DNA of 64,000 bases from an uncultured Alistipes sp. (GTDB taxonomy: Bacteria; Bacteroidota; Bacteroidia; Bacteroidales; Rikenellaceae). The stretch lies in the NCBI GenBank assembly GCA_947573795.1, contig CANPHE010000006.1, positions 21,666 to 85,665 of the forward strand. The letters are read 5' to 3'. Positions 30,526 to 46,982 of the stretch are shown here, piece after piece. Within the stretch, counting starts at the first letter, position 1; each line of letters opens with the position of its first letter. The position numbers and the translations under genes were made by a program. Under the pieces are notes generated by a model that saw only the letters and a list, made by a program, of their open reading frames with translations, had not been told where the DNA came from and did not search any database.

Positions 30526-31365
30526 TTATTTTTTGATCTTTTTACCGGCCTTGACTTCGCGCATGCCCATTTTCGAGAGCACCTCGCGGGCCTCAGCCGG
30601 TTCGTCGGTCGTGAGTTGGTCGACGCCCATGGCGAAAAGCGCCTCCATCTGCGCCGGATCGTCGACCGTCCAGGTATTGACGCTCATACCCAGCTTGCGG
30701 GCTTCGGGGTACCACGTAGGGTCGCTCAGCAGCGTTTCGCACCAGGTGCTCACGCCGTTCATACCCATCCGTGCGACCTCCTCCGGGCGGCGGTTGCTGC
30801 CCACGTACTGCACCGTGAAACCCGGAACGGAACGGGCCAACACGACGCTGGCGTTCGGGCTGAAGGTGAAGAACATCACACGCCGGGGCGAGAAAAGTCC
30901 GTGGGCCTTCAGGGTCTCGATGATCCGCGCGATGGCACGGTTCTCGATCTCGGCCGTGGAGTGGGTTTTCACTTCGAGAACCAGCATCGTCTTCGGGTGC
31001 CGCTTCGCCTGGGTCAGGAATCGGTCGAGCGTCGGGATGGGTTCGCCGTTCTTCAGCCGGTAATCCCGGAACTCGGCATAGGGGTATTGATCGATGCGCT
31101 TGCGGTCGATCGAGGAGTCGTGGAAGACGAGCAGTTCGCCGTCGGAGGTCATGTTGACGTCGAATTCGACGCCCCAGAACCCCGCTTTCTGGGCACTTTC
31201 GAGTGCTGCGAGCGAATTTTGGGCATATTCGCCCGCCTCGCAGTTCCAGTAGCCGCGGTGAGCCACGATGGCCGACGCTCCGGGCCGGGCGGCATGGCTC
31301 CAGGCGGCGGTCGCGACGGTCAGCACGGCCGCCAGCAGCGTCTTGGCGATGGTTGCAGGGGTCAT
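30526..31365 (-). CDS. Glycerophosphodiester phosphodiesterase family protein, copy 1
   Basis: VAHRGYWN...NSLAALESAQKAGFWGVEFDVNMTSDGELLVFHD. Confidence 0.9.
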   Translation of the reverse strand: MTPATIAKTLLAAVLTVATAAWSHAARPGASAIVAHRGYWNCEAGEYAQNSLAALESAQKAGFWGVEFDVNMTSDGELLVFHDSSIDRKRIDQYPYAEFRDYRLKNGEPIPTLDRFLTQAKRHPKTMLVLEVKTHSTAEIENRAIARIIETLKAHGLFSPRRVMFFTFSPNASVVLARSVPGFTVQYVGSNRRPEEVARMGMNGVSTWCETLLSDPTWYPEARKLGMSVNTWTVDDPAQMEALFAMGVDQLTTDEPAEAREVLSKMGMREVKAGKKIKK

Positions 31366-32210
31366 TATTTCTTGATCTTGATCTTTTTACCGGCTACGAC
31401 CTCGCGCATGCCCATTTTCGAGAGCACCTCGCGGGCCTCCATCGGGTTGTCGGTCGTAAGCTGGTCGACACCCATTTCGAAGAGGGTTTCCATCTGGTCG
31501 GCGTTGTTGACCGTCCAGGTATTGACGCTCATGCCCAGCTTGCGGGCTTCGGGGTACCACGTGGCGTCGTCCAGCATCGTCTTGAACCAGGTATCCACAC
31601 CGTTCATACCCAGCTCTGCGGCAACCTGTGCCGGACGGCGGTCGCTGCCCAAGTACTGCACCGTGAAACCCGGAGCCGACTGGGCCAACACGCGGCTGGC
31701 GTTGGGCGAGAACGAGATGAAGATCACGCGTTTGGGCGAGAACAGTTTGTGGGCCTTCAGTTTCTCGATGCTCAGGGCGATGGCGCGGTTCTCGATCTCG
31801 TCCGTCGAGTGCCATTTCATCTCGAAGACAAGCACCGTCTTGGGATATTTCTTCGCCTGTTCGAGGTATTGATCGAGCGTCGGGATGGGTTCGCCGTTCT
31901 CCAGGCGGTAGTCCTTGAATTCGGCATAGGGAGTCTGGTCGATGCGTTTGCCGTTGATATGGGCGTCGTGAAAGACGAGCAGCACGCTGTCGGCGGTCAT
32001 GTTGACATCGAATTCGCTGCCCCAGAAACCGGCTTTCTGCGCGCTTTCGAGCGCTGCGAGCGAGTTGCGGGCGTAGCCGCCGGCTTCGCAGTTCCAGTAG
32101 CCGCGGTGGGCTACGATGGCGGAGGCTTTCTTCTGAGCCTGTGCCAGGGTTACGGTTGCCGCTGCCAGGACGGTAGCGAGGAGGGTTTTGGCGATCAGTG
32201 CGGTTTTCAT
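31365..32210 (-). CDS. Glycerophosphodiester phosphodiesterase family protein, copy 2
   Basis: VAHRGYWN...EFDVNMTADSVLLVFHD; paralog of copy 1; start at 32210 (MKTALIAKTLL signal peptide). Confidence 0.88.
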   Translation of the reverse strand: MKTALIAKTLLATVLAAATVTLAQAQKKASAIVAHRGYWNCEAGGYARNSLAALESAQKAGFWGSEFDVNMTADSVLLVFHDAHINGKRIDQTPYAEFKDYRLENGEPIPTLDQYLEQAKKYPKTVLVFEMKWHSTDEIENRAIALSIEKLKAHKLFSPKRVIFISFSPNASRVLAQSAPGFTVQYLGSDRRPAQVAAELGMNGVDTWFKTMLDDATWYPEARKLGMSVNTWTVNNADQMETLFEMGVDQLTTDNPMEAREVLSKMGMREVVAGKKIKIKK

Positions 32211-32215
32211 ATCGA

Positions 32216-33433
32216 TTACATTTTTGAAGCTTTGTAGGTTATGTTGATGACACGGGTCGGTTCGACGGCGGTGATGCGGAACGTGGGAGCCTGTTCCATG
32301 AAATAGGTGCTCAGCCACATGGAACGTTCGCCGTCCGATTCGAACTCCGTATGGATGTAGTCGCCCATCTCGACGCGGATCTTGCCTGCGAAACGGATGT
32401 GCAGACTACCGCCCGAGAGGAACTCCGAGGAGAGCTCCACGCCGGGTTCGAGCGTCTGCCCGGGAGCCAGATGCAGCACGGCATCCCGCTCGACGCCCGA
32501 GGTGCGGAAGTCGTCGAAACGCAGGTCGGCCGTCAGGTTGCAGAGGTTGCCGTTGTCGATCTCGTTGATGTCCCAGCCCGAAGCGGAGAAGTCGAAACCC
32601 ATGTCGAGCAGCTTTTGGGTGTTCTGCGGCGGCTCGTAGCAACCGGCGAATCCGACGTAGCAGCCCACGTTGTGCACTTCGCGGGCGATGGTGCGGAGCT
32701 GCTCGTCCGTGAAGTCGCGGACATTGCCCATGCAGTAGAGATAGGGCGCGCCCATGTATTTGCAACGGTCGACAATCTGCTGGATGCTCTTGTAGGCATG
32801 GTACTCCAGGATGGGCCCCGAGAACTCCTCGCGCGTACCCCAGTAGAGGATGAAGTTCTCGCCCATGATCGAACGCGTAATGCGCACCTGTTCCTCGTCG
32901 GCGTGCGAGAGCAGCGGCGCGATGTTGTTGCGGCGGCACTCCAGGAGGAACTCCTCCATCGAGGTGATGCGGGTGCGGTATTTGGCGTAGCGCGAGCGGT
33001 AGCGGTAGTTGTTCATCAGCGTATCGAACGGCGTCTCGCGGATCACCACGTCGGCGGCCGAATTCCCGTCGAGGTCGGTGACCTGGTCGCCCAGGCAGCC
33101 CCTCACGCCATGCATGACGATGTATTTTCCGGGCGTGGCCGTGGCGTGGATGTTGGCCTCGATGATCTTGAAGCCCAGGCGTGCCGCGATCTGCACGTCG
33201 AAAACCGACTGGCAGGGGATGATCGGATCGCTGTTGGCGTAGATCTTGTCGATGAACAGATGGCTGTAATAGGGGCCTCCGAATTTGAAAGGCCAGTTGG
33301 CGTTCACGGCGCTCGACGTGTTCATGCGGATGCGCCGTTCGACCGCAGGGGTCAGGTTTTGCGCTGCGAGCGTCCCCGCCGTCGCCAAGGCGACGAGCAG
33401 GAATGCACAGCGAACGGATGCGTAAGGTTTCAT
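32216..33433 (-). CDS. Divergent PLC-like/GDPD-like secreted protein
   Basis: Signal peptide; SVFDVQIAARLGFKIIEANIHATATPGKYIVMHG aligns with the GDPD core but has EAN/HG in place of E-x-D/HD. Confidence 0.6.
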   Translation of the reverse strand: MKPYASVRCAFLLVALATAGTLAAQNLTPAVERRIRMNTSSAVNANWPFKFGGPYYSHLFIDKIYANSDPIIPCQSVFDVQIAARLGFKIIEANIHATATPGKYIVMHGVRGCLGDQVTDLDGNSAADVVIRETPFDTLMNNYRYRSRYAKYRTRITSMEEFLLECRRNNIAPLLSHADEEQVRITRSIMGENFILYWGTREEFSGPILEYHAYKSIQQIVDRCKYMGAPYLYCMGNVRDFTDEQLRTIAREVHNVGCYVGFAGCYEPPQNTQKLLDMGFDFSASGWDINEIDNGNLCNLTADLRFDDFRTSGVERDAVLHLAPGQTLEPGVELSSEFLSGGSLHIRFAGKIRVEMGDYIHTEFESDGERSMWLSTYFMEQAPTFRITAVEPTRVINITYKASKM

Positions 33434-33469
33434 AACAGGGGGACTTGGTTCGTTCGGGTTACGGGAGGG

Positions 33470-34594
33470 TTATCGTTTTCGGGCGGCCTGCTGGCGCAGG
33501 GGTCGCTGCGATACGAAGTCGCAGAAATCCTGGTAGAGCTCCTGATCCTCGGGGTCCGCGGAGTGTTTGAGGGCACTCAGGCCTTTGCCGCCCTGGTAGT
33601 AGGCCAGGTAGCAGCGCTCCCAGACGCCCGCCTCCTTGAAGGCCCGCATGTAGTCGCGCAGGCGGCCGCCCTTATGATGCTTCTTGAGGGCCGATTCGTC
33701 GAATTCGAGCTCCATCTCCATGCCGTTGGCGGCAGCCTGTGCGCAGGCCGTCTCCAGACGCGAATAGGGAATGTCGGAGTGGAAGAAGTAGTTGGGCTGG
33801 TAGTAGGCCCGGACGAATCCCTTCTCCCGCCAGCCCTCGTAGCCCGGGGCCTGGAAGTAGGGAATCCAGTAGAGTCCGTAGTGCTTTTGGGCGCAATAGT
33901 CCACGATGTCGGCGATCAGCGGGCTCTTGGTCAACGTCTCCTCGGTCACCCAGTAGAATCCGGCCAGTTCGACATGCTTGAACTTCGCCTCCTTGAAGCG
34001 GCGCAGCACCAGGTCGATATACCAGCGGCAGGCCAGTGCGCGGTCGTTCTCGTCGGAGAAGTCGAGCACGCGGTCTTCGAGCACACCCCAGTAGGTCGTG
34101 CCGCCCTTCTTGGCGATGGGCTGCTTGTAGACGATCGGATTGGGGATCGAAATCATGATCTGGCGTTTGGTCGCGGGGGCGCCGATCGTTTTCGAAGCCT
34201 GCTCGACCGCCTGTTCGATGGCATCGAGCACCTGTCCCTCGGAGAAGTAGTAATCGATCAGCTTGAGCCAGTCGGCCTGCGTGGCGGCCGGAAGGATCGA
34301 GCCGTCCGTGTTGCGGTGTCCCGGATCGAAGGCCACTTCGGCACTGCCTTCACCCAAATCGCGGATTTCCAACAGCAGGAAACCGTCGAAAAGCCATTGT
34401 TCTTTGCCATTGCGGTCGGTGTAGGACACGTAGTCCTTCATTTGCTCTACGCCCCAGTTGCGGTTGTGGGCTCCTCCGGCGTAGATCAACACCAGGTCGG
34501 TAGCCGTGAAGGGCTTGGTTTTGGGTTCGGCCCATACGGGCAGCATGCATGCGAGTGCCGCAAGGCAGGTCAGAATATGTCGGATAGATTTCAT
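33470..34594 (-). CDS. DUF4855-family secreted protein, copy 1
   Basis: DLVLIYAGGAHNRNWGVEQMKDYVSY...WLFDGFLLLEI; paralogous to 37796-39157. Confidence 0.75.
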   Translation of the reverse strand: MKSIRHILTCLAALACMLPVWAEPKTKPFTATDLVLIYAGGAHNRNWGVEQMKDYVSYTDRNGKEQWLFDGFLLLEIRDLGEGSAEVAFDPGHRNTDGSILPAATQADWLKLIDYYFSEGQVLDAIEQAVEQASKTIGAPATKRQIMISIPNPIVYKQPIAKKGGTTYWGVLEDRVLDFSDENDRALACRWYIDLVLRRFKEAKFKHVELAGFYWVTEETLTKSPLIADIVDYCAQKHYGLYWIPYFQAPGYEGWREKGFVRAYYQPNYFFHSDIPYSRLETACAQAAANGMEMELEFDESALKKHHKGGRLRDYMRAFKEAGVWERCYLAYYQGGKGLSALKHSADPEDQELYQDFCDFVSQRPLRQQAARKR

Positions 34595-34611
34595 CGTCGT
34601 CGGGTTTGAGG

Positions 34612-36219
34612 TTACTTTTTGCGGAAGAATCCGATGGTGGATTTTACGGCGCGGTTTTCGTCCGAATGGTAGTTGACGTGCTGCGTGCCGACCATCATGC
34701 CGGTCGAGCCGCCGCCGTCGAGGTTCAGCGCGTCGGTGCATCCGATGCCGCGCAGGATGCGGGCCAGCTCGGTAAGCGTGGCGCCGCCGCTGGCCGCGAT
34801 GCGGCCGTCGCAGATGAAGAGCACCACGCGGCCGTCGGCCATATGTCCTACGGCCGTACGGTCGGGCGAAACCGCGGGGCCGAAGATGTCGTAGGGAATG
34901 ATTTCGTAGTTATTCAGGTAATATTCTTTGCCCTTCGAAGTCTCCGTGAAATCGAAAGGACATTTTCCGTCTTTGAGCAGCACGGGACCCGCACTGATGG
35001 CGTATCGGGGCGACCAGCTCACGGGTTTCGTCGGGTTGACGGTCGATACGCTCGCGTATTTCGCTTCGCCGCGCACCGAGGGCAGCGGACGGTCGAAATA
35101 ATAGTTCGAACCGCTGGTGCCGACCCAGTAGACGCCGGGTTTGCCGTCGGCCGTGACACCGAAGATACCGCGCGTAGCGTGATACATCACGTTATACTCC
35201 TCGTCCTGCGAGCGCAGCGAACCCCGCATGTCGGGAATGAAGCCGATCGGGCTCGAATCCACGACGGCGATGCCCACGTGGTCCGAAGCGTAGAAATATC
35301 CGGCGTTGGTCATTACGCAGCAGTCGCCACCGAACGAGGCGGCCTGCGTGTCGATGGTGGCCTTGGAAGCGGGAACGTTCACGCGCAGCTCCACAGCGCC
35401 TTTGCTGACGTCGGCCACGGCATACCACGCGTGGAAGTTGTGGCCGCCGACCTTGTCCGTCGTCTCGTAGACCGAGATATCGGCGGGCAGCGACGACGTG
35501 TCGAGCTTCTTCCAGTTGAGTTTGATCGCTTCGGGCTCCTTGCCGAGCGAAGCTACGATCTCCTCGCTGTAACGGACCTCGTTGTTCGCCCGCAGATAGG
35601 CCCGGAAACGGTAAGGCCGACCGTATTCGAGCAGCACGTTGGAGATGACCTGCATGACGGGTCGGGTGCCGTCGAGTGCCGGGCCGTCCTGGCGGGTATC
35701 CTCCACGGTCGGCGTTCGGTCGGCGCTCCAGCAGATGCCGCACGCGACGTTGCGGGCACCCTCCGTATTGCGGGGTGCGTAGCGGAAAGCGATGCACGAC
35801 TCGGTTACGGTCGCCTCACCGACGAAAGCGACGCCGGGCGAGGTGAGGTCCTCCAGCCGCAGAGCCGATGCGTAGACGATCTCCGACGAGCCCTTGCGAC
35901 CGTCGGCGCAGACGCCGAACGTGTAGGTTTTGTCCTGTTCCAGCCCTCCGTCCACGGTGTAGCTCTCGACATTGCGGGCCGTGAAGCCGATTTTCCGGGG
36001 TGCAGTCTCCCCTTCGGCGCGTACCCAAACGGTGAATCCGCTCTCCGAGTCGCTTCGGTCGCTCCACGTGACGCGGACTTTCGTCTCGGCGATCCGTTCG
36101 GCGGCGACGTCGGACGGCGGTGTCGGTGCGGACGATGCCGCGGGCGTATCGCCCGAGTCGGAAGAACATCCGGCGAGCAGGAGTGTCGTAAGTGCCGTAT
36201 ATAATAACCGTCGTATCAT
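34612..36219 (-). CDS. Lipoprotein with FN3-like region and NAGPA-type phosphodiester glycosidase domain
   Basis: Lipobox LLAGCSSDSGD; FNHAWYAVADVSKGAVELRV-like region (read as NFHAWYAVADVSKGAVELRV); ALNLDGGGSTGMMV. Confidence 0.88.
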   Translation of the reverse strand: MIRRLLYTALTTLLLAGCSSDSGDTPAASSAPTPPSDVAAERIAETKVRVTWSDRSDSESGFTVWVRAEGETAPRKIGFTARNVESYTVDGGLEQDKTYTFGVCADGRKGSSEIVYASALRLEDLTSPGVAFVGEATVTESCIAFRYAPRNTEGARNVACGICWSADRTPTVEDTRQDGPALDGTRPVMQVISNVLLEYGRPYRFRAYLRANNEVRYSEEIVASLGKEPEAIKLNWKKLDTSSLPADISVYETTDKVGGHNFHAWYAVADVSKGAVELRVNVPASKATIDTQAASFGGDCCVMTNAGYFYASDHVGIAVVDSSPIGFIPDMRGSLRSQDEEYNVMYHATRGIFGVTADGKPGVYWVGTSGSNYYFDRPLPSVRGEAKYASVSTVNPTKPVSWSPRYAISAGPVLLKDGKCPFDFTETSKGKEYYLNNYEIIPYDIFGPAVSPDRTAVGHMADGRVVLFICDGRIAASGGATLTELARILRGIGCTDALNLDGGGSTGMMVGTQHVNYHSDENRAVKSTIGFFRKK

Positions 36220-36261
36220 GGTTTTCCGTATTTTGCGCGTTTGCTTTTCGGTGATTTACGG

Positions 36262-36294
36262 AAGGAGTAACCGACCGTAAGCCGGTTACTCCTT
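36262..36294. terminator. Intra-operon hairpin, candidate attenuator/terminator
   Basis: aaggagtaaccg / cggttactcctt inverted repeat between the BACON lipoprotein gene and the NAGPA gene. Confidence 0.55.
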
Positions 36295-36322
36295 GTCCGA
36301 TTCGTTTTTCAGGCGAAATCCG

Positions 36323-37780
36323 CTATTTGTAGGCGATGAGCGTAACCTCGCTAAGGGTCAGCCAGTGGTTGCGGACACCCCAACCTTCGCCGTAGAAGTT
36401 ATAACCGTTCTTGATCGTCTTGAAACGATAGTAGCGGGCTTCGATCGCGTTTTCCTCGGGAATGACGAGCGTATCGCCATTGGCAATGTATTCGCAAGGC
36501 GTCTTCGCCGGAAGCGCTTTGACGATCTTCGAAATCTCCGTTACGTCCATACCGCCGAGTTTCACCCATTTGTCCCAGGCGGCTTCGGGTTCGCCCGTAC
36601 CGGTATAGGCGTAAATCTCGTAAATCAGCGGGTCGTGGTTGATGTAGTCGTAGTAGTGGTAGGTGATGAAGCGTGCCAGACGGATCGTCTCTCCGGCGTC
36701 GATCGTGAAGGAGTCGCCGTGGCCCTCTGCGGCTTGTGCGTTGGTCGTCGTGAGCTCCCAGTGCTTGTAGGCGATCGGTGCATAATCGCTCTTAGCCGTC
36801 ATCCACTTGCCGTCGAAGAGGTATTCGCTCGCGCTGTTGGACGTGCCGACCACACCGTCGTTCTCCAGTGCGAAGGCGCGCATCTTCGATTTGTCGGGCA
36901 TATAGGTGCTTTCGTAGGCAATGGGCTGTACCTCCAGCGTGAAGGCTACATTGGCGTACGAAGGCGACGAGAAGACGATCTTGGCCTTCTTTTCCGCATC
37001 GATCAGGTTGTTGGGTTCGAGGTCGAAGACAATGGCATCGGCCGTCTTCGAAGCCTCGCGGAGCCATGCGCCGTCGGTGATCGCGTAGGTCCAGTCGTCG
37101 ATGTTCGCGGTTACCTTCACGGTATACTGCTCGCCGCGTTTCACCGTGACGGATTCCTCACCCGTAGCCGTGAGTTCGGCGTAGTTGAGCGGGCGTACGG
37201 ATACCGTCTTCTGGAATACGGGGTCGGAAGGCGACGCGAAGGTGATCGTGGCGGCGACGTTCGTGTCGAACTTCACCGAAGGATCGAGATCGAAGACGAG
37301 CTCCTTCTCCGACTTCGAAGCCTCCTTGAGCCATGCGCCGTTCTCCAGCGTGTAGGTCCAGTCTTCGACGTTGGCCGTGATTTGCAGGGTGAACTGCTCG
37401 CCCTTCTTCACCAGGACGGTCTCCGCTGCGGCGATGTCCATCTCGGCGACATAAGCGGGCTGCGATACCGGAACGCGTTCGATCGTACCGTCCGCAGCGA
37501 CGAACTCCATCGTCGACGTACGCTCGGCGCCCGTCGTGTTGCGGTCGACGCCCAGTTTGAGGGTCGTTTTGCCGCTGCCGTGCTTGGGGGTGACCTTGAA
37601 CCAGGGATCGGAAACGGTCATGGTCCAATTCGTGTTCGAATTCACCGTGAAGTCGATGATTTCCGCATCCGCCGAAAGCACGATCGATTCGGGCACGCCG
37701 ATGTTGGCCGCCTCGTCGTTCTCGCACGCCGTGACGCAGAGCGCTGCGACGGCCAGCAGAAGCATTTTGAAGGTTTTCAT
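36323..37780 (-). CDS. Surface glycan-binding-type lipoprotein with BACON-like repeats and C-terminal discoidin-like domain
   Basis: Lipobox VTACENDE; three BACON-like repeats; C-terminal GDSFTIDAGETIRLARF...EARYYRFKTIKNG. Confidence 0.75.
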   Translation of the reverse strand: MKTFKMLLLAVAALCVTACENDEAANIGVPESIVLSADAEIIDFTVNSNTNWTMTVSDPWFKVTPKHGSGKTTLKLGVDRNTTGAERTSTMEFVAADGTIERVPVSQPAYVAEMDIAAAETVLVKKGEQFTLQITANVEDWTYTLENGAWLKEASKSEKELVFDLDPSVKFDTNVAATITFASPSDPVFQKTVSVRPLNYAELTATGEESVTVKRGEQYTVKVTANIDDWTYAITDGAWLREASKTADAIVFDLEPNNLIDAEKKAKIVFSSPSYANVAFTLEVQPIAYESTYMPDKSKMRAFALENDGVVGTSNSASEYLFDGKWMTAKSDYAPIAYKHWELTTTNAQAAEGHGDSFTIDAGETIRLARFITYHYYDYINHDPLIYEIYAYTGTGEPEAAWDKWVKLGGMDVTEISKIVKALPAKTPCEYIANGDTLVIPEENAIEARYYRFKTIKNGYNFYGEGWGVRNHWLTLSEVTLIAYK

Positions 37781-37795
37781 AATGGATAGCGTTTG

Positions 37796-39157
37796 TTATT
37801 CGTTGTAAAATTTCTTTTGCCGCTCGGCTACGATCTTCGCCAAGCGCTGATAAAAGGCCCGTTCTTCGGCGATGCCGTCCATCCAGTATTCGATGGTGGT
37901 ACCGCCGTAATAGGCCAGATTCGATTTTTCGAGGACTCCCAACTCCTCGTAGACGTCGATGTAGGCTACGTTGCGATCGAACCCATAGTTCGAATCGAAC
38001 TCGACTTCGAGCCCCATGCCGGCCTGCTGCGCCTCCCGGACGGCATCGTAGAGCCGCTGGCGGGGAATCGTGGTGCTGAAGCAGTAGTTGGGCTGGTAGC
38101 AGGCGTAGTCGAAACCGTAGTTTTTCCAATCGGCATGGCCGAAGGCATCGTAGTAGGGAATCCAGTGGAAATCGAGGTTCTTCGAGTGTACGTAATCCGC
38201 GATCTGGCGCAGGTTGCTCGCGATGAATCCTCCGTGCTCGGGGAGCCAGTAGATTCCACTGAGCTGGATGTTGCGGAAATCGTGCTCGGCGAACTTCTCG
38301 ACGACCCGGTCGACGTACCATTTGCAGGCGGCGATGCGGTCGGGATAGTTGTTGAAATCCAGAGCCCGGCCGTCTATCTCGCCCCAGTCGGTCTGACCTT
38401 CCTGCGGATCGGGCAGGAAGATCACCACCTTGCGGCGATGGAAAGTGCCCCCGATCTTGGCGCGCAGTTCGCCTGCGGCCCGGTCGAGCGCCGGGATGGA
38501 GTGTTCGTCGGCGAGGTAGTAATCCAGAACGGCCTCCCAGTCCTTTTTGTTCGAAGCCGGCTTCTTGTATCCGGCACCGAAGGACTTGCCGCCGCGGTGC
38601 AGCGTGAGAAACAGGTAACCGTCGAAGAGCCATTGCGGAGCGTCGTCCGTCGTGGCCAGGTATTTGGCGAACCGCTTTTCGTCGAAGAGACGACCCGTAT
38701 CCGTAGCGTCGTAAATCAACATCAAATCGCGGATCGGAGCGCGGCCGATCGTCTCGCCGAAACGTTGGGTGACGGGGATTTCGATCCGGACCTTCGCATC
38801 TTCGGTCGTAAAGACGATTTTTCCGCTGCGCACCTCCCGGCCGGTGTTCACGTCGATCGAGACCCGGGCCGTGGCGGCGGAGGCTGCCGTGACATGGAGC
38901 CATGCGGCGGCATCGCCGGCCGAAACGTCCCAGCGGACGTTGCTGCGCACGACGAGCGTCTGCTCGAAAGCCGCGAACGTAAGGTCGTAGGCTTCAACCG
39001 AAGCTCCGTCGCGCGTCGCGACGGTGAGATAGGTCTCCTCGACGGGCGGATCGGGTTCGGGTTTTACGGGTTGCGGATCATCGTCGCCCGAGTGTCCGCA
39101 TGCGCTCAGAAGAACGCATGCGAACATCGTCGAACGTATTGCCTGTTTCAAAAACAT
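37796..39157 (-). CDS. Lipoprotein with BACON-like domain and DUF4855-family domain, copy 2
   Basis: Lipobox LLSACGHSGDDD; VVRSNVRWDVSAGDAAAWLHV; DLMLIYDATDTGRLFDEKRFAKYL...WLFDGYLFLTL. Confidence 0.75.
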   Translation of the reverse strand: MFLKQAIRSTMFACVLLSACGHSGDDDPQPVKPEPDPPVEETYLTVATRDGASVEAYDLTFAAFEQTLVVRSNVRWDVSAGDAAAWLHVTAASAATARVSIDVNTGREVRSGKIVFTTEDAKVRIEIPVTQRFGETIGRAPIRDLMLIYDATDTGRLFDEKRFAKYLATTDDAPQWLFDGYLFLTLHRGGKSFGAGYKKPASNKKDWEAVLDYYLADEHSIPALDRAAGELRAKIGGTFHRRKVVIFLPDPQEGQTDWGEIDGRALDFNNYPDRIAACKWYVDRVVEKFAEHDFRNIQLSGIYWLPEHGGFIASNLRQIADYVHSKNLDFHWIPYYDAFGHADWKNYGFDYACYQPNYCFSTTIPRQRLYDAVREAQQAGMGLEVEFDSNYGFDRNVAYIDVYEELGVLEKSNLAYYGGTTIEYWMDGIAEERAFYQRLAKIVAERQKKFYNE

Positions 39158-39164
39158 AGCGGTT

Positions 39165-40163
39165 CTATTCCTCGTTGTTATATCTCCAAAGTTCGACCTC
39201 AGCGATCGAGAAGAAGTTGACGCGTCCCGACCAGTACTGGTTCATGGCCGTGCCGTAAACTGCGTAGAAGTTCTTCAGCATCTTGACGCGGTAGTAGCGG
39301 GCCTCGGGAATCTGACCGTACTTGAACTCCACGGGCGATCCGTAGATCGTAAGGTCCTCGGGCGAACCGGCCTCGGCGGCCTTCGTGGGCTGCCACTTCT
39401 CCGAATCGTCGATGTCGGCGATCTTCTCCCAGTTGGTCCATTCGCCGCTCTGGGCAGGCTCGCCCGGCAGCGTATAGGCGTAAAGTTCGTAGACGGCCGG
39501 CGCCTGGTTCTCATAGGGCCAGTAGGGCCAGAAGATGACTTTCGAGAGGCGCATCGCCTGTCCGGCATCGAAGGTGAACGAGTTGCCGCGACCGTCGGGT
39601 GCCGGGTTGGGCATCGTCCAACCGAAGTTGTTGTAGACGACTTCACCGTAGGCGCCCTTCTTCGAGAGGTGTTTGCCGTCGAAGCAGAAGTAGGGGTCGG
39701 CCTTGTAGGCGGCGGTTCCCTCCCGGATGTAGGCGGCATCGTTGTCGAGCTGCATAACCGAGCACTGCGAGTGAGGCACCTGCGTAATCAGGGCGCGCGA
39801 AGCGGCGATCGTGTAGGTGTAGTCCTCCTCGAGGTTGTTCAACACGAACGAATAGGGATTCGAAAGGTTGATCTGCTGCCCCGCTTCGGGTGCGCCGTCT
39901 TTGAGAATGGCGCGGGTGGCATAGTCCAACGTCACCTTGACATCGGAGAAGTTCGAGCTCTCGACGAAGACGAATTTGATCTCGTGCGTCGAATTGTCCA
40001 CCGTACCGCTGACCGTCTCCGAACCGCAGGTGGCCGTCGCCGACTTCACCATGTTCGAAAGCGGATGCGTAGGAATGAATTCCGAGAACTCGGCATCGAC
40101 GTTGCAGGAGGTCATGCCTGCTGCAAACGAGATGATCGATAATAACGAAAGTATGCGTTTCAT
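39165..40163 (-). CDS. Surface glycan-binding-type lipoprotein, discoidin-like C-terminus
   Basis: Lipobox GMTSCNVDAEFSEF; GNSFTFDAGQAMRLSKVIFWPY...EARYYRVKMLKN resembles the C-terminus of 36323-37780. Confidence 0.72.
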   Translation of the reverse strand: MKRILSLLSIISFAAGMTSCNVDAEFSEFIPTHPLSNMVKSATATCGSETVSGTVDNSTHEIKFVFVESSNFSDVKVTLDYATRAILKDGAPEAGQQINLSNPYSFVLNNLEEDYTYTIAASRALITQVPHSQCSVMQLDNDAAYIREGTAAYKADPYFCFDGKHLSKKGAYGEVVYNNFGWTMPNPAPDGRGNSFTFDAGQAMRLSKVIFWPYWPYENQAPAVYELYAYTLPGEPAQSGEWTNWEKIADIDDSEKWQPTKAAEAGSPEDLTIYGSPVEFKYGQIPEARYYRVKMLKNFYAVYGTAMNQYWSGRVNFFSIAEVELWRYNNEE

Positions 40164-40184: not shown

Positions 40185-42206
40185 TTACCATCCGGGATTC
40201 TGAACCAGTGCAGGGCTCTTGTCGATCTCGGTCTGCGGAATGGGGAACAAATAGTACTCTTTCTTGAATACGCGCTGTTCGAAAGCGACGCGGGTGTAGA
40301 ACTCCGTCGAACGGAAGTTGTTGGTCTTCGGGTCGCCGCCGCGTACCGAGAGGCCCCAAACGTTGCCGGCATCGCCGTATTTGTGGACGGGAGCACCCGA
40401 AACGACCTCGCGCGAATCGTTGCCTCCGGCCGGCGTCTTGTCCGAGAGCAGACGGCGGCGCGTGGTGTAGAAGCGGTCGCCTTCGAAGTTGAGCTCGATC
40501 TGACGCTCGCGCAGGATGTAGTCGCGCTGCTGGTCCTTGTTGCCCTTGATGCCGGGATAGGTCGAGAAGATGCTCGGCAGACCGGCACGCTTGCGGATCA
40601 AATCCCAGTACTTCTGGATATCGCTGTTCGTCGGATCGTACTCGTTCAACGCCTCGATGTAGTCGAGCAGAATCTGGGCGTAACGAATGTAGATCGAGAT
40701 GTATTTGCCGGGCAAGTTCATACGCGTATAGAAATCGGCCTCGGCAACGACGCGCTTCTGCGTGAGGAAGCCCGTCATCGAGTAGTTGAGGCTCTGTCCC
40801 GAGTTGGATTTACCGCCGAAATAGAGTTCGCAACGACCCCAGCCGTCCTGCTGCGAGGCGTTCATGTTGAATCCGTTGCGATGAACGGCATCGTCCGAGT
40901 AGGGAAGCTGTACGCGGTGGTTGTAGTTGATCGAAGCGTAGAAACGCGCCTCGCGGTTGCAGAACATATTCCAGTCGCCCTCGGCATGGCCCCAGGCGTC
41001 GAGGTTCTTCAGGTCGCGGATCTCGGTCTTGCGGCCGGCGTCGGTCTTCATGTCTACGCCGCTGAAGTTGTAGTGCGGACCGTCGGAGGTGGCGAAACCG
41101 CGCTCGGTGTAACCCGACTGGGGATCATCGATCCGGCGGCCGTTCTCCATGTAGAAGGCGTCGACCAGACGCAGCGTGGGGCCTACGGCACCCATACAGG
41201 TGGCGCTACCGGCACCTTCCGGAATCGTGTGGACCATCCAGGCATAACGCGCGCCGCGGTTGTCCCACGAAAGGGTACCCTGGTCGATCGAACCGAAGAC
41301 GATCTCGGAGTTCCAACCGTTGTTGAAGAGGTTGTAGTAGGATTTGTAGGGATTGAAATCCTTCGAATCCATACCTACGTCGCCATTGGTGTAGAGCTTG
41401 ATGTTGGCGGCATCGGCTCGGGCGATCACGACCTTGTATGCGTCGGCCGCCGTCTCCCAACGCTTCACGTCGTAGGTCGTGCTGGCCAGGTGCGTGCCGT
41501 CGTGGTTCGTGAAATCGGCATAGTCGGGGTTGCCGTTCCACTGCTCCGAAGCCTGCAAGAGAAGCATCATGGCCTTCACGGAGAGTGCGGCGGATGCCGT
41601 CGCGCGACCCAGGTTGTCGGTCTCCGAGGAGTAGGAGTCGGGCAACAGTTTCTCGGCGCGGTCCATCAGCTCGCAAACGTATGCGGCGCATTCGTCGAAC
41701 GGCGCGCGGGGCATGTTGCCGAAGTCGGCGTCGTTGCTCATCTGCTGTTTGATGAGCACGACCGGACCGTACTGGCGCAGCAGCAGGAAGTAGTAGTAAC
41801 CGCGCAGGAAGAGGGCTTCGCCCAGGTAGCGGTCCTTGAGGTCCTGCGACAGGGCGCCGCACTTGCCGACGTTGTTTTCGAATACGAACGTCGAACGGAT
41901 GGCCCGGTAGTAGGTACCCCATTTTACGTAGAAGCTCGTCGAGGGCTCCCAGATACCGAGATTGATGTTGTAGGTCGGATATACGGACCAGGGAATATCG
42001 CACTCGTCGGCGCAACCCAGCCAGGGATCATCCTGATGCAGACGGTCCATCGGCAGTGCGGCATAGCAGTTCGTCAGGTATTTCTGCACCTCGGCGCGGT
42101 TGCTCCAGACCATTTTGTCGGTCTTCATGTCGTCGGGTTCTTTGTCGAGATATTCGCAACCCGCGAACATTGCAGTGGCTATAAGCAGATAAAATATCTT
42201 TTTCAT
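40185..42206 (-). CDS. SusD/RagB family nutrient-binding lipoprotein
   Basis: Lipobox MFAGCEYLDKEPDD; FLRGYYYFLLLRQYGPVVLI; RYAQILLDYIEALNEYD; LRERQIELNFEGDRFYTTRR. Confidence 0.95.
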   Translation of the reverse strand: MKKIFYLLIATAMFAGCEYLDKEPDDMKTDKMVWSNRAEVQKYLTNCYAALPMDRLHQDDPWLGCADECDIPWSVYPTYNINLGIWEPSTSFYVKWGTYYRAIRSTFVFENNVGKCGALSQDLKDRYLGEALFLRGYYYFLLLRQYGPVVLIKQQMSNDADFGNMPRAPFDECAAYVCELMDRAEKLLPDSYSSETDNLGRATASAALSVKAMMLLLQASEQWNGNPDYADFTNHDGTHLASTTYDVKRWETAADAYKVVIARADAANIKLYTNGDVGMDSKDFNPYKSYYNLFNNGWNSEIVFGSIDQGTLSWDNRGARYAWMVHTIPEGAGSATCMGAVGPTLRLVDAFYMENGRRIDDPQSGYTERGFATSDGPHYNFSGVDMKTDAGRKTEIRDLKNLDAWGHAEGDWNMFCNREARFYASINYNHRVQLPYSDDAVHRNGFNMNASQQDGWGRCELYFGGKSNSGQSLNYSMTGFLTQKRVVAEADFYTRMNLPGKYISIYIRYAQILLDYIEALNEYDPTNSDIQKYWDLIRKRAGLPSIFSTYPGIKGNKDQQRDYILRERQIELNFEGDRFYTTRRRLLSDKTPAGGNDSREVVSGAPVHKYGDAGNVWGLSVRGGDPKTNNFRSTEFYTRVAFEQRVFKKEYYLFPIPQTEIDKSPALVQNPGW

Positions 42207-42222: not shown

Positions 42223-45200
42223 TTAGAAGGTGATTCTCACACCGAGGTTGAACTTGCGGGCGAGCGGGTAGTTGCTACCGTTGCTCGAACCGCTCTCGGG
42301 ATCCCACATGTCCCACGGCGAGAAGAGCAGCAGGTTGCTGCCTACGAAGTAGACGCGCAGGGCCTCGCATCCCCACGATTTGAGGTGCTTGCCGCGGAAG
42401 GTATAGCCCAGCTCGAGGTCCGAAAGACGCAGCAGGCTGCCGTCGTAGATCGTACGCGTGGAGGCTTTCTGGTTGTTGGCCGAAGCGCTGGCCGACAGAC
42501 GCGGATAGAATGCGTTGGGATTGGGGTTCTCCTCCGACCAGCGGTCCATCGCCTTGGCGAAGAGGTTGCCCTTGCCCACACCGTTGGCGAAGGGGAAGAA
42601 CGAACCGCCGAGCGAGTAGCTTACGCGGGCCTGGCCGCGGAAGAAGGCGCCGAAGTCGAGACCCTTCCAGTTGATCTGGAGACCGAAACCGTAGTTGATC
42701 TCCGGAACGCGCGAGTAGCCGATGGCCACTTCGTCGTGTGCGTCGACCACGCCGTCTTTGTTGTAGTCGAGGTATTTCACGTCACCCGGACGTACCGTAC
42801 CGAACTTCTGCTCGGGGCTCAGGTCGATCTCGTCCTGGTCCTCGAACAGACCCAGGGCGATCAGACCGAACTGCTGGTTGAGCGGGTGTCCCGTGCGCAT
42901 GCGCCAGGGATCGGTCGGAGCCTCGTCCTTCTCGGTGACCTTGTTGCGGGCGAAGGAGAAGTTACCGTAGATGCGGTAGTTGACTTTGCCGATATGGTGG
43001 TTGAACTCGGCCGTGGCCTCGAAACCGTGGTTGGTCATCTTACCCATGTTGGCCAACGGCTGCTGGTTGAGACCGGCGATGCCCGGAACCGACGAACGCT
43101 GAATGAGGATATCCCAGCGCTTCTCGTGGAAGTAGTCGAGGTCGATCGAGATCATCGAGTCGAACATCTTGAGTTCCAGACCTATGTCTTTCTTGAGACC
43201 CTTCTCCCACGTCAGACCCAGCACGCCTTCCTGTGCTTCGCCCGTACCGCCGGACCAGGAGGCGTTGGGACCGAAGTAGTGGCCGCCCAGACCCGAACCC
43301 CAGGTGCTCAGGTAGGCGAAACGACCCGAAGCCAGCACGTCGGAACCGACCAGACCGATCGATCCGCGGATCTTCAGGTGGTTGATCCACTTCACCTTCC
43401 AGAACGGTTCGTTCGAAATCAGGTAACCGATGGCACCTGCGGGGAAGACGCCGAAGCGCTCGCCCGACTTGAAGTTCTCCGAACCGTTGTAACCCATGTT
43501 GTATTCGAAGAAGTAGCGGTCGTCGTACGAATAGGTGGCGCGGAACGCGAGACCCTGCTTACGATAGGGAAGCGCGAGGATCGAACTGCCGGCCGCCAGG
43601 TTGTTGTAGCTGCGCTGGTAGTACATCGCCATGGCGCCTACGCGGTGCTTGTCGTTGAAGACCCGCTCGTAGTTGAACTGCGCCTTCAGCTCGTCGGCAC
43701 GGTCGCCCGAATGCTGGTGGCTGTAACCCAGGAATTCGTCGCCTTCGCGCTTGCGCACCAGCGAGTAAAGACCCGTTTCGTCGTCGACGCCGTTCACGGC
43801 GTAGAGGGCCGAGTAACGACCGCGCGCCTGGATCGACGAGGAGTTGAAGTCGTAGGAGAACGACGCCGTGAAGTCGAGACCCTTGGTGATGAAGTCGAGT
43901 TTCTGCTTGAGGATGATCTGGCTCATGACCGACGTGCGGTAGGTCTTGTTGTAACCCGAACCGAACAGACGCTCGGCGGGGTTACCCAGCGAGGTCGAAA
44001 GCGGAGCACCCCAACCCCACTGCAATTCGCCGAACTCGTCGTAGCCGATGGGCACGCGTACGGGCGTGGTAATGGGGTCCTGCTCGTAACATGCCTTGAA
44101 AAGCTCCGAAGCCTGCGACTGGAAGTTGTTGTTGGCCGTGATGGGACGCGGCTGGTGGGCATCGGTCATGTTGGCACCGATCTCGAGCGAGAGGGTCGTC
44201 GTCTTGGTGAGCGACATGTCAATGTTCGAACGGAAGTTGTAGCGCGTGATATTGATATTGGTATTATAATCCGTATCGGGATTGTTGTAGAGGTTACCGT
44301 TATCGCGCAGGTAGCTGGCCGTCACGTAGTAACGCGCACGCTCGCCACCGCCCCGGACATTAACCGAAACCTGGGTGTTGGTCGAGTATTTCGTGAAGAG
44401 CTCGTCGAACCAGTTGACGTTGGGATAAAGATAGGGATCGGCTTTCGACTCGGTCATCTGAATCTGGTAGGGCGTGTAGAATTCGCTGCCGTAAGCCTCG
44501 TTGTAGAGACGCATGTAGTTGGCGCCGTCGAGCAGCTTGGGCATGTTCACCAGGTTGGAGATACCGCTTTCGATCTTCACGTCGATCTGCGCCTTCTGAG
44601 CCACACCCTTGCGGGTCGTTACGAGCACGACGCCGTTGGCGGCACGCACACCGTAAACGGCCGTAGCCGATGCGTCCTTGAGCACCGAGATGGTCTCGAT
44701 CTCCTCGATCGAGAGATCGGACATCGAACGCTCCACACCGTCCACCAACACCAACGGGGCGCTGGAGTTGAGCGACGAGATACCGCGAATCCAGAATTCG
44801 GCGTTGTCGAGACCCGGCTCGCCCGTACGCTGTACGACGACCGCACCGGCGATCTTACCGGCCAGGGCGTTGGTCAGGTTGCGCTGCGGGATCTTCAGGG
44901 CGTCGCGCGAAACGGACGAAATGGCGCCGATCACGCTGGCTTTACGCTGATGACCCATACCGACGACCACGGCGGCGTCCATCTCGAGCGTATCCTCCTC
45001 CATGAAGATGTCGAGGCTGAGCGACTTGGGAACGACGGCCGTTTGGGATTTGTAACCCAGGCAGGTGAAGGTCAGGTGCACACCCGGATTGGGAACGTCG
45101 ATCACGTAGTATCCGTTTCCGTCGGTTACGGTACCCGTTTTCGTTTCGTCGATGATAACGGCGACGCCCGCTACCGGCTGACCGTTGGGATCGATGACTT

Positions 45201-45387
45201 TTCCTTTGACGATCTGTCTTTCGGCACGGGCCGGTGCCGCACTGTACGCATTCGACTCCGATGCTTCGTCAGCGGGTGCTGCGAACGACGGCGCCGATAG
45301 CGTAATGGCCAGAAGGAGAGCGAACAACCGCCATTCCCCCCCCCTCAAAAATCGGAAGCAAAGATTTGTCATAAGTTCTTCATACAT
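42223..45387 (-). CDS. SusC/RagA family TonB-dependent outer membrane transporter
   Basis: VKGKVIDPNGQPVAGVAVIIDETKTGTVTDGNGYYVI carboxypeptidase-like domain; ISSLNSSAPLVLVDGVERS plug; C-terminal KFNLGVRITF; start could be 45372 instead of 45387. Confidence 0.96.
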   Translation of the reverse strand: MYEELMTNLCFRFLRGGEWRLFALLLAITLSAPSFAAPADEASESNAYSAAPARAERQIVKGKVIDPNGQPVAGVAVIIDETKTGTVTDGNGYYVIDVPNPGVHLTFTCLGYKSQTAVVPKSLSLDIFMEEDTLEMDAAVVVGMGHQRKASVIGAISSVSRDALKIPQRNLTNALAGKIAGAVVVQRTGEPGLDNAEFWIRGISSLNSSAPLVLVDGVERSMSDLSIEEIETISVLKDASATAVYGVRAANGVVLVTTRKGVAQKAQIDVKIESGISNLVNMPKLLDGANYMRLYNEAYGSEFYTPYQIQMTESKADPYLYPNVNWFDELFTKYSTNTQVSVNVRGGGERARYYVTASYLRDNGNLYNNPDTDYNTNINITRYNFRSNIDMSLTKTTTLSLEIGANMTDAHQPRPITANNNFQSQASELFKACYEQDPITTPVRVPIGYDEFGELQWGWGAPLSTSLGNPAERLFGSGYNKTYRTSVMSQIILKQKLDFITKGLDFTASFSYDFNSSSIQARGRYSALYAVNGVDDETGLYSLVRKREGDEFLGYSHQHSGDRADELKAQFNYERVFNDKHRVGAMAMYYQRSYNNLAAGSSILALPYRKQGLAFRATYSYDDRYFFEYNMGYNGSENFKSGERFGVFPAGAIGYLISNEPFWKVKWINHLKIRGSIGLVGSDVLASGRFAYLSTWGSGLGGHYFGPNASWSGGTGEAQEGVLGLTWEKGLKKDIGLELKMFDSMISIDLDYFHEKRWDILIQRSSVPGIAGLNQQPLANMGKMTNHGFEATAEFNHHIGKVNYRIYGNFSFARNKVTEKDEAPTDPWRMRTGHPLNQQFGLIALGLFEDQDEIDLSPEQKFGTVRPGDVKYLDYNKDGVVDAHDEVAIGYSRVPEINYGFGLQINWKGLDFGAFFRGQARVSYSLGGSFFPFANGVGKGNLFAKAMDRWSEENPNPNAFYPRLSASASANNQKASTRTIYDGSLLRLSDLELGYTFRGKHLKSWGCEALRVYFVGSNLLLFSPWDMWDPESGSSNGSNYPLARKFNLGVRITF
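45336..45344 (-). repeat. G9 homopolymer (C9 on + strand) within the susC 5' coding region
   Basis: ccattCCCCCCCCCtcaaaa; minus strand TTG AGG GGG GGG GAA TGG = L R G G E W. Confidence 0.85.
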
Positions 45388-45681
45388 TTAATAATTAGGA
45401 ATTTAGGTGGCATTGGGATTTCCAGTAGGAAAATTCCAACTATTCATTACGGAAGACAAAATAATATAGTTTTTTTCAATTTGTTCTCATTCCGGGGAGA
45501 TAAAATAAATTAAATTTCCATCTTTTTTATTTAGCGCGCGGATATTCGAAGCGAAAATAAAATATATCATATTGTTTTATAACATATTAAGCGAAAAACT
45601 ACCGCATATCAATTTAAAAATTATATTTTCGAAATTATCCGGATATTTACGATTTTATGTTTTATAATTCCGCTTAAAATA

Positions 45682-45712
45682 TTTGTATTCCGAGCGATAA
45701 TACCTACCTTTG
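45682..45712 (+). promoter_or_regulatory. Bacteroidetes promoter (TTTG-N19-TACCTTTG) for the ROK regulator
   Basis: TTTG 45682-45685; TACCTTTG 45705-45712. Confidence 0.7.
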
Positions 45713-45740
45713 CGGTTGAAACCAGCTTATTTTTGCCGCC

Positions 45741-46982
45741 ATGTCCAGTTTGTTCGCTTCGGAATCCCCTTTGGCCGAGTTCGCCCGGGCCGTCAAGGTC
45801 TCTATTTTAAAAAAGATATTCGCTAAAAAGGAGTTCACGATTCCCGACATCGCAGAAGAGACGAATTTCAGCGTCACGACCGTCGCCAAGCATGTCGCCG
45901 AGTTGCAGGAAAGCCGTCTGCTCGAACGCATCGACCGCCTGAAAACCAACAAACGGGGTCGACGGCCCGTGCTTTATCGGGTGAAATCCGACGCCTGGAA
46001 TTTTCTCGGGGTGGATATCAAGTCGCACGGGCTTACCTTCGGGTTGATGAACCTCTCGGGCGAGATGGTGCGGACCGAGCAGATCGGAGATTTCTATTTC
46101 GAGAATACGCACAACAAGTTGGACGAGATTTGCACCCACATCTCGCAGTTCATCGCGCGGGCCGAAAGCGAACTGCCGGGAAAGGTCGTCAGCGCCAATT
46201 TCAACATCGGCGGACGGGTCAATTCGCGGACGGGAACGAGTGCGTCGATCTTCAATTTCGAGGAGACGCGCGACATGCCGCTGACCGACCTGTTGAGCGA
46301 ACGGCTGGAGATACCGGTTTTCATCGAGAACGACACCAAGGCGATGGCTTACGGAGAGTATGCGTCGGAGGAGCGGCCAGACTACGAAAACGTGATCTAC
46401 GTCAATGTCGGATGGGGGCTCGGGCTCTGCCTGATCGTCAACGGAGAAATCTATTACGGCAAAGACGGCTATTCGGGGGAGTTCGGCCATATCCACATGT
46501 ACAACAACAATGTCATGTGCCACTGCGGCAAGAAGGGATGCATCGAAACCGAACTCTCGGGCAGCGCGATCTGCCGCAAACTCATCGAACGCATCCACAA
46601 CCACGAAGCGTCGGCGCTCTCGCGCAAGGTATGGGACGGCAATGTCATTACGATCGCCGACATCATCGCTGCCACGGAGCAGGAGGACCCCCTCTGCATC
46701 GAACTCGTATCGCAGGTCGGCAGCGAATTGGGGCATCAGCTGGCCGGGTTGATAAACCTGCTGAATCCCGACCGGATCGTCATCGGGGGCAAGATCGCCG
46801 AGGTCGCACCCTACTATTTCTTGCAACCCGTGACGCTGGCCATCCACAAGTATTCGTTGCGGCTGATGAACCAACACCTGTCGATCGTGCCTTCGCGGCT
46901 GGGGCCGAATGCCGGAATCGTCGGCGCCTGCATGCTGGCACGGAAGCGGCAGGTGTGGGACCGTCTGCTGGGGACGATTTAG
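45741..46982 (+). CDS. ROK family transcriptional regulator (NagC/XylR type)
   Basis: N-terminal winged-HTH-like region; GRRPVLYRV; ENDTKAMAYGEY; CHCGKKGCIETE zinc motif. Confidence 0.93.
   Translation: MSSLFASESPLAEFARAVKVSILKKIFAKKEFTIPDIAEETNFSVTTVAKHVAELQESRLLERIDRLKTNKRGRRPVLYRVKSDAWNFLGVDIKSHGLTFGLMNLSGEMVRTEQIGDFYFENTHNKLDEICTHISQFIARAESELPGKVVSANFNIGGRVNSRTGTSASIFNFEETRDMPLTDLLSERLEIPVFIENDTKAMAYGEYASEERPDYENVIYVNVGWGLGLCLIVNGEIYYGKDGYSGEFGHIHMYNNNVMCHCGKKGCIETELSGSAICRKLIERIHNHEASALSRKVWDGNVITIADIIAATEQEDPLCIELVSQVGSELGHQLAGLINLLNPDRIVIGGKIAEVAPYYFLQPVTLAIHKYSLRLMNQHLSIVPSRLGPNAGIVGACMLARKRQVWDRLLGTI

Follow-up and report, generated by a model that had tools for sequence, protein, structure and literature searches.

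The susC gene in the window, that is, in the whole 64-kb stretch of DNA from an uncultured Alistipes species analysed here, carries a run of nine Gs near its start that probably acts as a translational contingency (phase-variation) switch, with the gene assembled in the ON frame. The tract lies at positions 45336-45344 (-), which is C9 on the plus strand, and covers codons 15-18 of the open reading frame at 42223..45387 (-), which encodes a 1054 aa TonB-dependent glycan transporter and reads ...FLRGGEW... around the tract. The tract is preceded by two in-frame ATGs, at codons 1 and 6, and followed by the signal peptide's hydrophobic core; the signal-peptide region, MYEELMTNLCFRFLRGGEWRLFALLLAITLSAPSFA at 45280..45387 (-), was taken from the translation and its extent judged by eye. 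An initial annotation had reported the tract with this position, strand and codon range, where we indeed found it, and the translation of susC bears out the placement just before the hydrophobic core that had been described. Nine Gs give the full-length product of 1054 aa, eight Gs truncate it to 71 aa and ten Gs to 39 aa, so that the frame is open at nine and lost after a 1-nt change, as the annotation had predicted.

No other G or C run in the 64-kb window reaches seven, and the tract had already been noted as the longest there. Markov models trained on the window predict 0.14 (order 2) or 0.01 (order 4) runs of at least nine per 64 kb, so the G9 tract exceeds chance. The initial annotation had held that such a run was not impossible by chance and that its position was the main argument; this expectation, together with the spike at nine in the genome and genus described below, makes that assessment too cautious. 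The tract was also underestimated there in that about 85 further tracts of at least nine exist in the genome. The locus combines two of the properties of a poly-G contingency locus, a slippable tract beyond chance and a reading frame that a one-base change alters, and on its sequence the gene is a strong candidate for a phase-variable locus. A scan of viral contigs found no further copies of the susC tract locus.

In the proposed mechanism, slipped-strand mispairing would add or remove one G at replication. With nine Gs the signal peptide would be read through into SusC, the ON state; with eight or ten, translation would stop within 71 or 39 codons and the transporter would be lost, the OFF state, until a later slip brought SusC back ON. 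The phase-variation reading first put forward by the annotation gains from the nine-G spike, from the enrichment of tracts at SusC 5’ ends and from frame-broken paralogs; at this locus itself we infer the replication slippage, the length variation in the population, the reversibility and the selective benefit.

The susC product matches TIGR04056 (OMP_RagA_SusC) with 947 bits against a curated cut-off of 368 and also has CarboxypepD_reg-like and Plug domains. A susD partner (40185..42206 (-), Pfam SusD_RagB, 157 bits) adjoins it 16 nt downstream in the same direction, and by both the profile match and this neighbour the gene belongs to the SusC/RagA transporters. The remainder of a putative glycan-utilisation cluster extends over 31365..40163 (-) and consists, by ORF calls and Pfam, of a DUF5000 gene (39165-40163), a DUF4855 gene (37796-39157), a DUF5000/BACON gene (36323-37780), a NAGPA phosphodiester glycosidase gene (34612-36219), a second DUF4855 gene (33470-34741), an ORF without family assignment (32216-33433) and a GDPD gene (31365-32318), all on the minus strand. 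The genes from susC and susD to the GDPD gene presumably form one operon, and GH2 genes are also found near susC. Divergent from susC is a ROK-family gene with an N-terminal helix-turn-helix (45741..46982 (+), Pfam ROK, 199 bits), which is likely the local regulator. The A/T-rich intergenic region between the two genes (45388..45740) holds no convincing invertible-promoter repeats. Inverted repeats around the promoter, searched for at 45300-45800, were only weak A/T-rich ones of 12-29 nt and 72-92% complementarity, and repeats flanking an invertible promoter, as in Bacteroides-type invertible DNA, were not found in that interval.

The susC tract would belong to a genus-wide set of poly-G tracts held at a slippage equilibrium of nine. 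The assembly (2.75 Mb, 93 contigs) contains 95 G runs of at least nine on the two strands, of which 7 lie no more than about 100 bases from a contig end, and the poly-G set of the genome comprises about 85 tracts. Poly-G at the starts of four contigs (C52, C55, C59 and C75) was left out of the set; the first ~100 bases of these contigs consist of poly-G or mixed homopolymers that resemble sequencing or assembly junk. Runs of exactly 7, 8, 9 and 10 Gs number 12, 12, 83 and 9 in the whole genome. G or C runs of length 5, 6, 7, 8, 9 and 10 number 583, 32, 6, 4, 61 and 7 in an 810-kb sample of it, made up mostly of stretches picked for carrying tracts. A second species (G023, RecA 94% identical) has 10, 23, 86 and 2 runs of 7, 8, 9 and 10 genome-wide, and 725, 63, 1, 6, 59 and 1 runs of length 5 to 10 in a 757-kb sample that was likewise picked for tracts. 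In 37 genomes of the genus taken together, runs of 7, 8, 9 and 10 amount to 257, 334, 854 and 54, whereas 24 genomes from other families in the order give 616, 150, 64 and 19, an ordinary decay. Nine is the strict maximum among 7, 8 and 9 in 28 of the 37 genus genomes versus 1 of the 24 others. That one genome (G044), the only non-genus genome with more G9 than G7 and G8, has 4, 5 and 10 runs of 7, 8 and 9 plus five G10, and is possibly an independent case.

From these distributions we infer that tract lengths in the genus reflect a slippage equilibrium at nine. Should the assemblies represent mixed populations, each locus would appear in the consensus at its most frequent length, and the peak would be sharpened by this. 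Loss of mutS1 was considered as a cause of the spike and rejected, since a survey found full-length or large mutS1 matches in nearly all genus members and mismatch-repair loss therefore fails to explain it; a full-length match is absent from this 90%-complete assembly and from one other genus member (G036), which may be due to gaps. A sharp set point of nine in genomes that bear mutS is a mechanistic puzzle.

Where the tracts lie bears on what they might do. Genes were called with a home-made three-periodic Markov model that gave a coding density of 81%, so some genes were missed, and by this calling about half of this genome’s tracts fall outside genes. Gene interiors carry tracts at 0.32 of expectation, 5’ flanks are enriched 3.8-fold and the stretches just after genes 8-fold. 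The first 30 codons hold 11 tracts against 3.8 expected, 10 of them sense and 1 antisense. The tracts of the second species are mostly intergenic (54/66), and its called genes have no sense-strand tract within their first 30 codons. A good many tracts are found between genes or just past stop codons, where no switch is evident, and this speaks against a switch. In a sample of the second species (L219-L258), 16 tracts lie within 60 nt after stop codons against 0.9 expected, often in purine-rich spacers. Promoter-spacer switching was rejected as a general role, as just two tracts lie in a -33/-7 spacer, which is not above background. These two, L168:1131 and L168:5528, are similar promoter-like sites with G9 inside a 19-nt -33/-7 spacer, and the length of G9 there could tune transcription via spacing.

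This placement is the ground for the main rival to the contingency switch, namely that G runs of about seven or more drift neutrally to nine and are retained at any site that tolerates them (spacers, gene ends and signal peptides), in which case the length of the SusC tract may vary with no selected role. We consider this explanation unlikely. It would fit the depletion of gene interiors and the enrichment in intergenic DNA and directly behind genes, seen in both species, and also the tract upstream of recA, which is missing from 29 other loci of the genus. Likewise, the signal-peptide tracts found in three copies of the DUF4988 lipoproteins of this genome are not common to the genus, as among 30 loci, to which this genome contributed one, a G run of at least seven occurs in L307 only. 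Against it stand the strand bias in the first 30 codons and the concentration of tracts on SusC, regulators and surface proteins, and above all the distribution of tracts along the SusC genes themselves.

Taking TIGR04056 matches as anchors and the genes with an N-terminal domain match as the test set (n=29), we defined the SusC 5’ region as running from 500 nt upstream to 60 nt downstream of the point where that match starts. A tract occurs in this region in 9/29 SusC genes of this genome, the susC of the window among them, where 0.52 are expected, and 7/9 of these tracts have G on the coding strand. The corresponding P of about 5e-9 is indicative only, because it was computed on a pattern that had already been noticed. 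SusC 3’ ends in this genome hold no tract (0.52 expected) and SusC bodies none (2.26 expected). Nine tracts at 5’ ends against none at 3’ ends, which should tolerate them no less well, is the strongest point against neutral drift. The second species is again on the side of drift, in that no SusC 5’ excess was found among 65 of its 86 G9 positions (at least one tract against 0.62 expected). The concentration on SusC accordingly belongs to this species or its near clade, and is not established genus-wide. Comparable single cases are found in the second species: in a receptor-like protein (L250:7277) G9 immediately precedes the hydrophobic core, and one SusC has a tract 8 nt upstream of its domain match. 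In other lineages, close homologs of SusC are free of tracts over the 5’ region that was examined and lack the tract glycines too; a distant SusC homolog (L102) has G8 at the place matching the susC tract.

A gene broken exactly at its tract and open otherwise has the appearance expected of an OFF phase. Four genes are out of frame in this way: two SusC genes, a hybrid two-component regulator and an ECF sigma factor; at the susC locus of the window itself no OFF state was seen. One SusC gene (on contig C17) has G10 and encodes 121 aa as assembled, with full length restored at G9. The other (C41) has C9 with the signal peptide and the domain in different frames, so the in-frame length of that tract is not nine. 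The regulator (C5) and the sigma factor (C31) each have G10. The three G10 cases could be assembly errors. A further locus, L167:2451, was rejected as a frame-broken gene and is better read as the junction of a kinase and a regulator gene. In such assemblies, a SusC or regulator gene that is frameshifted may be in the OFF phase rather than a pseudogene.

These broken genes also bear on a second alternative, that the tract is stable, an invariant Arg-Gly-Gly-Glu coding sequence, and that the spike at nine comes from some other constraint. Some 30 other coding tracts keep the frame open at their assembled length, which is nine throughout, and most of the genus has few runs of ten (54 vs 854 of nine), just as stability would have it. 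Yet runs of 7 and 8 should then exceed runs of 9, as they do in the other families, the spike extends to intergenic DNA, which has no frame, SusC homologs do without the glycines, and four genes have their break exactly at the tract; we regard a stable tract as quite improbable. That translation really starts downstream, at the in-frame TTG of codon 21 after the tract, which would put the tract in the leader with at most a role in tuning initiation and make the frame independent of its length, is scarcely credible even though start sites in Bacteroidota are hard to call from sequence, since such a start would leave MFALLLAITLSAPSFA without the charged n-region that homologs L041 (MNIKRF...) and L045 (MTVKRI...) have, two in-frame ATGs precede the tract, and the tracts of other genes lie inside or after the hydrophobic core and so are translated (MKKFLLMLFSAALLFGGGC..., C51 SusC).

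Poly-G slippage as an established mechanism in other bacteria, which the initial annotation had invoked, is documented in Campylobacter (PMC6321876) and in Neisseria (PMC3786947). The Campylobacter phasome (PMC6321876, PMC4965091) resembles the set described here in its poly-G tracts, tens per genome, with a peak at nine, in genic tracts mostly with G on the coding strand, and in ON/OFF control by frameshift; poly-G/C tracts there peak at 9 (53%) and 10 (26%) (PMC6321876). It differs in that 77% of its tracts are in ORFs, whereas about half, or in the second species most, lie outside called genes here, in that length variation was measured there and is predicted here, and in phylum and targets, which here are glycan uptake. 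The Neisseria meningitidis hmbR and hpuAB genes (PMC3786947) likewise have poly-G in the frame of an outer-membrane nutrient receptor where a frameshift switches uptake, but they serve iron acquisition in a pathogen, in contrast to a SusC glycan transporter with its tract in the signal peptide. The Bifidobacterium breve pilus switch (PMC9187656) is a further case of ON/OFF homopolymer slippage in a gut commensal, there confined to two pilus clusters of an actinobacterium, here a genome-wide set on nutrient uptake. Closest in gene class and bacterial order is the SusC/SusD phase variation of Bacteroides fragilis (Nakayama-Imaohji 2009, cited in PMC11868660), which proceeds by invertase-mediated site-specific DNA inversion, unlike the present locus with its lack of convincing inverted repeats. 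The papers searched present phase variation in Bacteroidales as a matter of DNA inversion, and full-text searches, which reached few subscription journals or preprints, found no poly-G switching in the order.

The poly-G set probably lets these uncultured Bacteroidales switch nutrient-uptake genes randomly on and off. If so, it would be a second switching mechanism in Bacteroidales, acting on nutrient uptake, and the switched outer-membrane proteins may include ones used by phages. In this species the set would centre on SusC 5’ ends and also reach regulators and surface lipoproteins of glycan uptake. For the broader proposal the odds seem to us about even: a poly-G contingency system throughout the genus, with a set point of nine despite mutS in nearly all members, that is wired at several levels in at least one species into glycan foraging (SusC, hybrid two-component regulators, ECF sigma and anti-sigma factors and surface lipoproteins), so that clonal populations would diversify combinatorially in diet and possibly in phage receptors. 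Besides the genes already described, coding tracts occur in hybrid two-component regulators, another ECF sigma factor and a FecR anti-sigma factor, in DUF4988, BACON and DUF4493 surface proteins and sulfatases, and in LacI, TetR, AraC and PadR regulators, and some other genes carry them near their ends. Three short peptides of 53-61 aa (L153:3966, L164:8608 and L178:14123), of which the one scanned against Pfam gave no match, have G9 soon after the start codon and a common APxxE...VE.GFA.S motif.
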